From Euzebya pacifica (GTDB lineage: Bacteria; Actinomycetota; Nitriliruptoria; Euzebyales; Euzebyaceae), in assembly GCF_003344865.1 (NCBI RefSeq), contig NZ_CP031165.1, forward strand, positions 4,965,910 through 5,029,909: a DNA stretch of 64,000 nt, read 5' to 3'. Shown here piece after piece: positions 20,586-51,834 of this stretch. Made by a program: the position numbers and the translations under genes. The notes under the pieces are model-generated. The model was not told the DNA's origin. It saw only the letters and a list, made by a program, of their open reading frames with translations, and searched no databases. Each line of letters starts with the position of its first letter. Positions within the stretch are counted from its first letter, which is position 1.

Positions 20586-20726
20586 CGTGTCGGCTCACCG
20601 GCGCCGGGCGCCGTCGCGACGACACGGCTCGAAGGTGTGTTGCCTCACCCGCGCCGGGCGCCTGTCCGACGACACGCATCGAAGGGGTGTTGTCTGGCCC
20701 GCGCCGGGCGCCTGTCCGGCGACACG
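20586..20726. repeat. Three tandem 41-bp inverted-repeat elements, 50-bp period
   Basis: Units at 20586-20626, 20636-20676 and 20686-20726 are each exactly 41 bp and are joined by 9-bp spacers ending TCGAAGG. The first unit is bounded by CGTGTCG and CGACACG; the others have TGTGTTG or GGTGTTG on the left and CGACACG on the right. Each has the inner palindrome GCGCCGGGCGC at the same offset. The array fills the gap between the convergent galE and hydroxylase genes, so it may also act as a bidirectional terminator. Confidence 0.85.
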
Positions 20727-43788: not shown

Positions 43789-44827
43789 TGCCGCCGGCCG
43801 GGTTGCTGGCCGGGGCGACCCGTTCGTGCTCGGGCGGCGGGGGCGGCGGGGTGCCGTCCCCGAACGGTCGGCCGCCGAGCTGCTCGCGGTGGTGCAGGGT
43901 CATCCAGCCCGACAGGTCCGGCCCCTTGGGCACGATGCCGGTGGGGTTCACGTCCCGGTGCACCTCGTAGTAGTGCGACTTGATCTGGTCGAAGTCGATC
44001 GTGTCGCCGAACCCGGGGGTCTGGAACAGGTCGCGGGCGTAGGCCCACAGGACCGGCATCTCGCTCAGCTTGCTGCGGTTGGCCTTGAAGTGGCCGTGGT
44101 AGACCGCGTCGAACCGGACGAGGGTGGGCCACAGCCGCACGTCGGCCTCGGTGATGGTGTCGCCGACCAGGTACCGCTGGTGGCTCAGCCGTTCGCCCAG
44201 CCAGTCGAGCCGTTCGAACAGCTGGTCGTAGGCCTCCTCGTAGGCCGGCTGGGTGCCGGCGAACCCGCAGCGGTAGACCCCGTTGTTGACGGCCTCGTAG
44301 TTGCCGCGGGCGACGTCGTCGATCTCGTCGCGGAGGTGCTCGGGGTACAGGTCGGGCGCGCCGTCACGATGGTGGGCGGTCCACTCCAGCGAGAAGTCGA
44401 TCGTCATCTGCTTGAAGTCGTTGGTGACCACGCCGCCGGTCTCCAGGTCGACCATGGCGGGCACGGTGATGCCCTTGGGATAGCGGGGGAACCGCGCCTC
44501 GTAGGCGTCCTTCAACCGGGGGATCCCGAGGACGGGGTCGACCGCACCGGGGTCGAGGTCGAACGTCCAGGAGCGCTGGTCGTGCACCGGCCCGGCGATC
44601 GCCATGGAGATCGCGTCCTCCAGGCCGAGCAGCCGACGGACGATGACCGCCCGGTTCGCCCAGGGGCAGGCGCGGGCCACCGCCAGCCGGTACCGGCCGG
44701 CCTCGACCGGCCACCCGTCCCGCGCGTCGACGGTGATGCGGTCGGGGATGTAGGCGGTGTCGCGCTGGAACGACGGCTCCACGTAGGAACCCTGCGACGA
44801 CTCGGACGGTTCGGCTCGATCACTCAT
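43772..44827 (-). CDS. Glutathione S-transferase family protein, glutathionyl-hydroquinone reductase type
   Basis: This 351-residue protein of the Xi-class (YqjG/ECM4/PcpF) family contains RYRLAVARACPWANRAVIVR (about 45-64), with the ACPWA active-site Cys; IAGPVHDQRSWTF; YPKGITVPAMVDLETGGVVT; and a C-terminal helical domain with YLVGDTITEADVRLWPTLVR and RFDAVYHGHFKANRSKLSEM. These are all diagnostic. Family members reduce glutathionyl-hydroquinones; in actinobacteria, which often use mycothiol, the thiol partner is uncertain. A proline-rich segment and a loop near the C-terminus (GTPPPPPPEHER) are extra to the usual length. GGATTCAT precedes the ATG. Two 41-bp elements lie just upstream. Confidence 0.9.
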   Translation of the reverse strand: MSDRAEPSESSQGSYVEPSFQRDTAYIPDRITVDARDGWPVEAGRYRLAVARACPWANRAVIVRRLLGLEDAISMAIAGPVHDQRSWTFDLDPGAVDPVLGIPRLKDAYEARFPRYPKGITVPAMVDLETGGVVTNDFKQMTIDFSLEWTAHHRDGAPDLYPEHLRDEIDDVARGNYEAVNNGVYRCGFAGTQPAYEEAYDQLFERLDWLGERLSHQRYLVGDTITEADVRLWPTLVRFDAVYHGHFKANRSKLSEMPVLWAYARDLFQTPGFGDTIDFDQIKSHYYEVHRDVNPTGIVPKGPDLSGWMTLHHREQLGGRPFGDGTPPPPPPEHERVAPASNPAGGIIRSA

Positions 44828-44870
44828 ATGAATCCATACTATCCGTCGGACTTGTCCTGCAAACCCCAGG

Positions 44871-44961
44871 CGTGTCGGCCCAGTCGACCCGTGCGCGACC
44901 CACACGACACGCCCCGGATGCGTGTCGTGTCGCTCGCAGGGGGGTCGACGGAGACGACACA
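44871..44961. repeat. Two 41-bp inverted-repeat elements, 50-bp period
   Basis: Units at 44871-44911 (CGTGTCG...CGACACG) and 44921-44961 (CGTGTCG...CGACACA) repeat the size and 9-bp spacing of the array at 20586-20726, but the interiors differ. They fill the 186-bp gap between the GST-like start and the ABC permease stop, where no gene is seen. Confidence 0.8.
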
Positions 44962-45013
44962 GGGTGGTGGGGCCGGCCACGGTGGGGGGTGGGTTGCGGT
45001 CGCGGGGGGTGGA

Positions 45014-46725
45014 TCAGGCACGTCGGGGCGTCCAGGTGAAGCGGAAGCGGACCACGACGGTGCCGACGGCGGCCCACGCCAGCAACACCGCCAGGCGCGC
45101 CCACGGGACGCCGCCGTCCATGGTGGGGTTGAGCACGTCCGACAGCGCGGTCACGGCCGGTCGCAACGGCAGGACGTCGGCGATGGTGACGAGGAAGCCG
45201 GGCAGCTCACCGATCAGGAAGACGTCGGAGACGAAGGCCATCGGCAGCAGCGCGGCGTTGGCCAGCGGCGAGACGGCCTCGGCCCGCGGCGCGATCGCGA
45301 CCAGCGCCAGGCCCAGCACCGTGAACGTGGCGATCCCCACCGCGAGGACGAGGACAGCGACGGGCAGCCTGGAGGGTGGCACGGTCACCCCGACCAACAG
45401 CACCCCGACCAGCAGCACCACGGCGGTGGTGACCACGCCCAGCACGACCGCCGCGCCGATCCGGCCGGCCACGAAGGCGCCGAGGGTCATGGGTGTCCCC
45501 CGGATGCGCTTGAGGATCCCACGGTCGCGTTGGGTGGCCAGCCGTTCGGCCAGCTCGGCGAAGGTGACGGTCGCCATGCCGAAGATGCCGAGCGCCGGCG
45601 CAAGGTGCTGGGCCAGCGGTATGCCGCCCCGGTCGTCCAGCTCGGGGTCGCCGAACACGGCGTTGAACAGCAGCAGCATGACCACGGGAAAGGCGAGGGT
45701 GAAGAACGCCGAGGACGGCACGCGGACCGTGGCGAGGATCCCGTCGACCACCTGGCCGCGGACCAGCGTCGACCGGCGGACGACCCCCTCCTCCACCACG
45801 TGCGCGTGTCGGGCAACTTCGACGGGCGGCCCCTCTTGCGACACGCTCGGCCGGGACGACGTCCCTGACCCCGGCGCGTGTCGGGTATCGACGACGGGCG
45901 GCCCGTTTTCCGACACGCGGGCGGTTCGGCTGGACGTGCGGGGGGTCTCCCAGGTCCAGCGGCGGGTGGCGACCACGGCCGCACCGACCGCCCAGGCCAC
46001 CATGAGGGCGAGGTGGCTCCACGCGAAGCCGGCGCCGGCGGTGAAGGGGTTGAAGGCCTCGGCCATCGCGTTGGCGAACGCCTTCAGCGGGAAGATGCCG
46101 CCCACGATCGACAGCACTTCGGGCAGGTCGTCGCCGACCACGAAGACGTCGGAGACGAACGCCAGCGGGACCAGCGTGCCGTTGGTGATCGCCTGGGTGG
46201 CCGCTGGCGTCCGGGCGATGGAGGACACCGCGAAGCCCAGCGCTGCGAAGCAGGCGATGCCGATGACCAGCGTGAGCGCCGCCGCGGGCAGCTTGCCCCA
46301 GACGATCTGCACGTCGAGGAACACCACACCGGCAACGACCATGAGCAGCACGGCCGCGGTTCCCGACACGATGCCGGCCCCGACTCGTCCGCCGAGCAGC
46401 GCCGCGGTGGGGATGGGCAGCGCCCGCTGGCGACGCAGGACCCCCCGCTCGCGGTCGATGGACAACCCGATCGCCAGCGACGTGTAGGCCGCCGTCGCCG
46501 CCGCGTACGCCGCGATGGCCGGCGTGAAGAACTGGGCGACCCGCACCCCCGATCGCGACTCCAGCACGGCGTTGCCGACCAGGGTGCCGACGAGCAGCAG
46601 CACGATCAGCGGGAAGACGAGGGTGAAGAACGCGGCGATCGGCGTGCGGACGAACGCGGTCACGCGCGCACGGGTCTCGCCGAGCAGCAACCCGATGACG
46701 GTCGGACGCCCGGTCACGGCCGTGC

Positions 46726-46729
<4 letters not shown>
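45014..46729 (-). CDS. ABC-2 type transporter permease, two permease units fused in one chain
   Basis: This 571-residue protein contains two complete ABC-2 permease modules of about 250 residues, each with six helices. The first has FVRTPIAAFFTLVFPLIVLL, IDRERGVLRRQRALPIPTAA and VPLAFVSDVFVVGDDLPEVL. The second has VRVPSSAFFTLAFPVVMLLL, TQRDRGILKRIRGTPMTLGA and LPMAFVSDVFLIGELPGFLV. They are clearly duplicates, both ending in a W-T-W/F-T-W-type strand. Between them lies a hydrophilic linker (about 263-310) read from two 41-bp repeat elements. GTG 46729 overlaps the ATPase stop (GTGA). With the ATPase it should form a complete exporter; drug, lipid or antibiotic export is usual for the family. 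No stop or clear internal start separates the modules. Confidence 0.88.
45805..45917. repeat. Two 41-bp elements inside the ABC permease coding sequence
   Basis: Units at 45805-45845 and 45877-45917 are each 41 bp with CGTGTCG and CGACACG ends and share the core GACGGGCGGCCC. Starts are 72 bp apart, a multiple of three. Read on the minus strand they give two similar peptides, VSENGPPVVDTRHA and VSQEGPPVEVARHA, in the linker between two permease modules. Confidence 0.85.
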
Positions 46730-47688
<959 letters not shown>

Positions 47689-47717
47689 GCACGGCATCCT
47701 CCACGACCTCGCGGTCG

Positions 47718-50781: not shown

Positions 50782-51834
50782 ATGATCAGGCTCGGAGTCG
50801 ACGCGCACAAGCGCACCCACACCATCGTCGCCATCGATGATGCAGGCCGTGTCCTGGATGACATCACCGTGCAGACCACGGTGGCCGGCCACGTGAAGGC
50901 CGTCGCGTGGGCTGAACAGCTCGGCGATGAGCGCTGCTGGGCGCTTGAGGACTGCCGGCACCTCACCCGCCGGCTGGAGCAGGACCTGATCCGCGCCGGC
51001 GAGGCGGTCGTGCGAGTCCCACCGCGCCTGATGGGCCAGGCCCGCCGCGGCGGCCGCAAGCGCGGCAAGTCTGACCCGATCGATGCCGAAGCGGTCGCCA
51101 TCGCCGCGCTGCGCAACCCCCAGCTGGCCTCAGCACGACTGGACGGGCCCGAGCGGACCATCCGCCTGCTGGTGGATCATCGTGAGGACCTGGTCACTGA
51201 GCGCACCCGCATCCACAACAGGATCCACTGGCACCTACACGAGCTGCGCATCGACGACATCGCCCCCAAGACCCTCAGCCGCTACACGGTGCTCGACGGG
51301 CTGACCGCCAGGCTGGCTGAGCACGATGGAACGGTGGCCAACATCGCCACAGAGCTCATCGACCGGTGCCGCCATCTGACCGTGCGGATCAACGACCTGG
51401 AGCGGGAGATCGCCGAGCTGACCGCTGCCCAGGCCCCGTCGCTGCTGGCGCTGCCAGGCTGCGGGGCGCTGACCGCAGCCAAGCTGATCGGCGAGACCGC
51501 TGGAGTGGATCGCTTTCACTCCAAGGCCGCGTTCGCGATGGTCAACGGCACCGCGCCGATCCCGGTGTGGTCATCCAACCGTGAACGGTTCCGGCTCAAC
51601 CGTGGCGGCAACCGGCAGCTGAACGTGGCGTTGCACCGCATCGCGATCACCCAGATGCGCATCCACCCCCCGGCACGCGCCTACGTCGACAAGAAGCTTG
51701 CCGAGGGCAAGACCAAGACCGAAGCGATCCGGGCGCTGAGACGACGCCTCTCCGACGTCGTCTACCGCGCCATGGTCACCGACCAACAGACCCCTCAACC
51801 GGCCCCGGCGACTTGCGTCGCACTCGCCGCTTGA
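50782..51834 (+). CDS. IS110-family transposase
   Basis: This 350-residue protein has an N-terminal RuvC-like DEDD domain: GVDAHKRTHTIVAIDDAG (first Asp), CWALEDCRHL (Glu) and RGKSDPIDAEAVAIAAL (two Asp). The C-terminal Tnp20 domain has LLALPGCGALTAAKLIGE with the helix-hairpin-helix, and AFAMVNGTAPIPVWSSNRER with RGGNRQLNVALHRIAI, where the conserved serine of this family acts. Both domains are complete, so the enzyme is probably active. In this family the enzyme works with a structured bridge RNA from the non-coding end. AGGAG lies 9 nt before the ATG. The coding sequence is slightly less GC-rich at third positions than its neighbours. Confidence 0.95.
   Translation: MIRLGVDAHKRTHTIVAIDDAGRVLDDITVQTTVAGHVKAVAWAEQLGDERCWALEDCRHLTRRLEQDLIRAGEAVVRVPPRLMGQARRGGRKRGKSDPIDAEAVAIAALRNPQLASARLDGPERTIRLLVDHREDLVTERTRIHNRIHWHLHELRIDDIAPKTLSRYTVLDGLTARLAEHDGTVANIATELIDRCRHLTVRINDLEREIAELTAAQAPSLLALPGCGALTAAKLIGETAGVDRFHSKAAFAMVNGTAPIPVWSSNRERFRLNRGGNRQLNVALHRIAITQMRIHPPARAYVDKKLAEGKTKTEAIRALRRRLSDVVYRAMVTDQQTPQPAPATCVALAA

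Follow-up and report, generated by a model that had tools for sequence, protein, structure and literature searches.

A 39-bp palindromic repeat pair in the linker of an older double ABC-2 permease fusion of Euzebya pacifica

In the genome of Euzebya pacifica (G000), a single chain consisting of two ABC-2 permease halves carries two copies of a 39-bp palindromic repeat in its linker, and both copies lie in the reading frame of the gene. The fusion is older than the repeat, and it is very probable that the pair, a palindromic repeat resembling REPs and Rickettsia palindromic elements (RPEs), invaded the linker of an already fused, ordinary exporter permease and did not create the fusion. This dated account of a repeat entering an existing linker supplants the story put forward in a first-pass annotation of the locus, in which the repeat made one chain from a two-gene transporter. 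The transporter itself is ordinary, and the interesting part is the repeat family, through which palindromic repeats of the Rickettsia type within proteins are extended to an actinobacterial lineage. The window is the whole stretch of 64,000 nucleotides that was analysed, and its relevant features are as follows.

45014..46729, minus strand: fused double ABC-2 permease, 571 aa (stop-free frame; PF01061, 148 bits; AlphaFold model)
45944..46729, minus strand: first permease half, residues 1-262 (37.7% identity to the second half over 247 aa)
45017..45793, minus strand: second permease half, residues 313-571 (half-versus-half alignment; best PF01061 stretch 331-532)
45788..45934, minus strand: linker, residues 266-314, predicted disordered (low pLDDT)
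45878..45916, minus strand: first 39-bp class A element, residues 272-284, VSENGPPVVDTRH
45806..45844, minus strand: second 39-bp class A element, residues 296-308, VSQEGPPVEVARH
46726..47697, minus strand: ABC ATPase, DrrA-like (PF00005, 107.9 bits; DrrA model below cutoff)
44872-44910 and 44922-44960, unstranded: pair of 39-bp elements of class C with a 50-bp period, downstream of the permease gene

The fused permease and its predicted fold

The permease gene is a single open frame with a GTG start and zero internal stops, and it received a strong coding score from a codon-usage caller. The product matched the Pfam domain ABC2_membrane (PF01061) in two stretches (148 bits, cutoff 26.9), which places it among the ABC-2 permeases, and its orthologue in the sister species (G002) was 88% identical. 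The two halves (residues 1-262 and 313-571) aligned with each other at 37.7% identity over 247 aa (E=6e-51). These results bore out the first-pass reading of two duplicated permease halves joined in one chain. In the AlphaFold model, for which 28 fused relatives were aligned (mean pLDDT 86.7, pTM 0.84), the same helix pattern was repeated in both halves, in agreement with one six-helix module per half. The sole long stretch of low confidence, residues 266-314, coincided with the linker, with pLDDT below 50 at residues 266-273 and 281-314.

A sequence search of the PDB with the permease found zero relatives. By fold, the best matches were the structures 8k1n, 8k1o and 8k1m of a mycobacterial efflux pump with a chain of 510-530 residues, and the match was moderate (probability 1.00, whole-chain TM about 0.5, 17% identity). 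The Rv1217c/Rv1218c system of M. tuberculosis is described as having a large 12-helix membrane domain (PMC7761784). With its two six-helix halves in one chain, its similar fold and a separate ATPase gene adjoining, the present permease belongs to this single-chain 12-helix type, from which it differs in the moderate fold match, in the repeat and in a longer linker (57 residues versus a median of 35 among relatives in the same alignment columns).

The ATPase gene overlaps the permease start by 4 bp, the usual operon layout of DrrA/DrrB-type exporters. All DrrA/DrrB-type matches of the two proteins in NCBIfam were below cutoff: the permease scored 51.8 bits against the DrrB family TIGR00025 (curated cutoff 146.9) and falls outside it, and the ATPase scored 231.8 bits against the DrrA model (cutoff 312). 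The permease is probably the membrane component of an ABC-2 exporter of the DrrA/DrrB type, with the overlapping ATPase gene as its partner, whose product would form the nucleotide-binding pair, with the fused chain as the whole membrane part. It is plausible, as suggested in the first pass, that one chain fixes the pairing of the halves; this would hold for the whole protein family and is unrelated to the repeat.

Relative age of the fusion and the linker repeat

The linker elements form a direct repeat (D18, 45802-45846 and 45874-45918) of 84% identity. The earlier description of two in-frame elements 72 bp apart stood, and the unit size given there, 41 bp, was corrected to 39 bp with weakly conserved flanks. 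The unit corresponds to 13 codons and the 72-bp period to 24 codons, and the pair spans 111 bp. Read in the phase GTG TCG, the elements encode the peptides VSENGPPVVDTRH(A) and VSQEGPPVEVARH(A), and an example of a tryptic peptide from the linker is VSENGPPVVDTR.

Full-length, stop-free fusions were found in the sister species, in G003 and G001 of the same genus, in another family of the same order (G005, G007, G009, G011) and in the wider class (G059). Fusions in a single open frame were also present in four genomes at a greater distance (G042, G043, G051 and G057). In an independent collection of named genomes, 38 of 79 related loci held single-chain fusions, among them loci of Nonomuraea, Micromonospora, Actinoplanes relatives, Cellulomonas and Rhodococcus ruber. 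Among the aligned linkers, the element pair was present only in E. pacifica (class A) and its sister species (class B), with a 72-bp period in both, and the linkers of the 27 other aligned fusions were variable, with lengths of 20-60 aa. Since repeat-free fusions are widespread and the repeat is found in the linkers of these two species only, the repeat entered a linker that already existed.

In the first-pass annotation the order was the reverse, with a repeat from the gap between two permease genes turning into coding sequence and thereby creating the fusion. The repeat does sit exactly at the junction of the halves, and the claim that a mostly intergenic repeat is coding sequence here was confirmed by the position of the other elements in this genome, mainly between genes. 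As an origin of the fusion, this sequence of events is nevertheless close to untenable, because repeat-free fused chains are both widespread and older, including those in the same genus, and no 39-mer was seen between the halves at any related locus examined. Orthologous linkers without the repeat had been named beforehand as evidence against it, and these were found in G003, G001 and others. The check for an internal stop came out in favour of a genuine fusion, with the frame open in E. pacifica and the orthologous fusions full-length and stop-free.

In the favoured account of an invaded linker, the fusion of the permease halves would greatly predate this lineage. A 39-bp palindromic pair would have entered the flexible linker afterwards, and the simplest timing places this event in the common ancestor of E. 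pacifica and its sister species. One insertion preceding the split of the two species is the probable course; two separate insertions into the same linker are possible. The insertion may have survived through the combination of a 13-codon unit, a 24-codon period, a reading phase without stops and a disordered linker. Because the linker is predicted to be disordered, the addition of 37 codons would be tolerable, and it probably did no harm to the protein. After the split, the pair would have been rewritten in concert, to class A in E. pacifica and to class B in the sister species.

Selection of the linker repeats at the protein level, with a role such as that of a motif in the regulation or assembly of the transporter, would account for the frame kept in both species and for the likeness of the peptides VSENGPPVV and VSSNRPPVV. 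We consider it highly improbable, since the same peptide-coding element occurs in unrelated proteins (FlhF-like, QueA-like, a kinase and a peptidase), is absent from most fused orthologues and lies in a stretch predicted to be disordered.

The repeat family in the genome and in other genes

Genome counts were obtained from pattern searches and from sequence stretches around the elements. The pattern GTGTCG-N27-CGACAC was matched exactly at 85 sites of the genome (6.37 Mb) versus 0 for the reversed control, and the motif CGTGTCGG-N9-ACGGGCGGCCC with at most 2 mismatches gave 62 matches versus 3 for its reversed control. When the spacer was left free at 14-44 bp, 217 sites were found, about 4.4 for each other length versus 85 at 27 bp. 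The repeat unit is accordingly described as 39 bp with invariant 6-bp arms and a class-specific 27-bp interior: class A, the class of the E. pacifica permease, has the core ACGGGCGGCCC, class B has a core like TGTGGCCGGTT, and class C has a 50-bp period. In window 44700-47000, the Rfam 15 covariance models gave no match at E values of 1 or below. A CRISPR-like array was ruled out by the variation among units, the presence of one to three of them per site and the lack of a long array. In window 20587-20725, three head-to-tail GTGTCG..CGACAC elements of 39 bp fill a convergent-gene gap with an exact 50-bp period.

About 28 of the examined class A loci were intergenic, as judged from the gene calls of a simple codon-usage caller. 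Convergent-gene gaps accounted for 15 of 28 class A loci versus 6 of 59 element-free gaps (p=2.4e-5), and the distance from an intergenic copy to a stop codon was often 20 bp or less. Together with the good folding of L046 (z -2.46) and of window 44862-44920 (z -3.03), these positions would suit elements that are primarily bidirectional terminators or mRNA 3'-end hairpins, with the in-gene copies as rare misplacements. Ordinary terminators, however, would not be expected to have a length of exactly 39 bp, to stand in tandem at a fixed period or to occur inside genes, and REPs elsewhere likewise prefer such intergenic and convergent places. We therefore regard a primarily terminating role as possible and rather doubtful; a terminator role and mobility are compatible. 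Termination is one of the hypotheses listed for REPs (PMC3733652).

In addition to the permease, five genes carry the element in frame, and five of the six in all use the same phase. Named from readings of their translations and not from database matches, the genes in the permease phase encode an FlhF-like protein and a UbiB/ADCK-like kinase, each with an element pair, a QueA-like enzyme with a single element, and a prolyl-oligopeptidase-like enzyme with a single element at the C-terminus. The sixth gene, for a small protein, has its element near the N-terminus and in a different phase. The insertion in the kinase was absent from homologues in six other genomes, and that in the QueA-like enzyme from the five outgroups aligning there. 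The spacing of the elements also differed by location: in-gene pairs were 72 bp apart in 4 of 4 cases, and of the intergenic spacings 19 were 73 bp and 3 were 72 bp (Fisher p=0.0023, or about 0.013 if L040, one of the four in-gene pairs and with a doubtful gene end, is reckoned intergenic).

Turnover of the arrays and comparison with known repeats

Class A motif matches numbered 70 in E. pacifica and 35 in the sister species, and were not abundant in G001 and G003. Exact 39-mers within the genus numbered 85 in E. pacifica, 52 in G002, 15 in G001 and none in G003, where the family was lost or never gained. Across the order, 39-mers with other interiors exceeded controls (G015 59, G022 22, G017 16, G001 15, G008 12, G012 12), whereas elsewhere in the phylum the 39-mer architecture was hardly above controls, with a maximum of 5. 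In G012 and G008, 39-mers with very different interiors were paired exactly 62 bp apart, a third fixed spacing beside 50 and 72/73 bp.

Orthologous sites in the two sister species were usually both occupied, often with a different class or number of elements, although the G002 sites had been picked for holding elements and occupancy is biased upward. Among the nine arrays comparable as pairs, copies within an array were 92% identical versus 71% between orthologous copies (p=2e-5). In both the permease and the kinase, class A elements in E. pacifica stand at the same place as class B elements in G002, each with a 72-bp period. From these comparisons, the arrays appear to have been rewritten in concert after the split, probably by turnover in place through conversion or re-insertion. 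At position 0/40, C-G predominates in class A and T-A is frequent in class B. Because this compensatory change keeps the arms paired, it suggests that the hairpin, whether of DNA or of RNA, is important at some stage; as RNA, the in-gene copies folded no better than shuffles (z -1.2 to +0.6).

A RAYT gene (Y1_Tnp, PF01797) gave no match in this genome, with control genomes matched, and RAYT mobilisation was thus ruled out; no transposase or other mover was identified in the genome for the 39-bp repeat. Movers of small palindromic repeats are often unknown. The element is most likely a small non-autonomous palindromic repeat recognised through its hairpin, REP-like and especially RPE-like. A more specific proposal, which we offer tentatively and think unlikely to hold, is an undescribed order-specific system in which an enzyme recognises 39-bp GTGTCG/CGACAC hairpins whatever their interior and rewrites paired arrays concertedly, even in open reading frames. 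If so, the linker peptides of a species would have been swapped for another version with the 24-codon period kept. The fixed 39-bp length, the free interiors and the coordinated replacement of copies provide a testable lead to the mobilisation or conversion mechanism of small palindromic repeats.

RPEs are dispersed palindromes, many of them in frame within unrelated protein genes (PMC10969869, PMC3733652). The present repeat resembles them in its in-frame insertion into six unrelated genes and in the outgroups of the tested genes, which are without the insertion. It differs in size (RPEs are about 150 bp, compared with the 39-bp unit and 111-bp pair), in its head-to-tail pairs at 72/73 bp and in its actinobacterial host, the comparison being by description and not by sequence. 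REPs of the GTAG and CGTC families are short palindromes, often dimers, mostly intergenic and sometimes genic, and are targets of IS elements (PMC3733652); the present repeat is likewise short, palindromic, often paired and mostly intergenic. CGTC families lack a dedicated transposase and have stems of 8-9 bp, loops of 4-5 nt and mainly head-to-head dimers (PMC3733652), in contrast to the fixed 39 bp, 27-bp interior and head-to-tail direct copies found here, and RAYT-mobilised REPs differ in having the gene that this genome lacks. Because of the missing RAYT, the different size and arrangement, and a comparison with RPEs by description, the repeat was assigned to neither group. Within the collection of papers searched, nothing relevant was found on such repeats in Euzebya or Nitriliruptor and nothing on concerted evolution of REPs.

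Several elements looked broken off and were followed by IS-like sequence (L039:3345-3383 onward, L071:1526-1564 and L187:1498-1628), and L071 and L187 have GGCAGCCTCAAGACTTCGTTGCAACACGACACTTCGAGGTGGAG in common. These junctions suggest that IS elements insert into the 39-bp repeats, as with REPs. In window 50782-51834, an open frame starting with MIRLGVDAHKRTHTIV resembled, on reading by eye, an IS110-type transposase.
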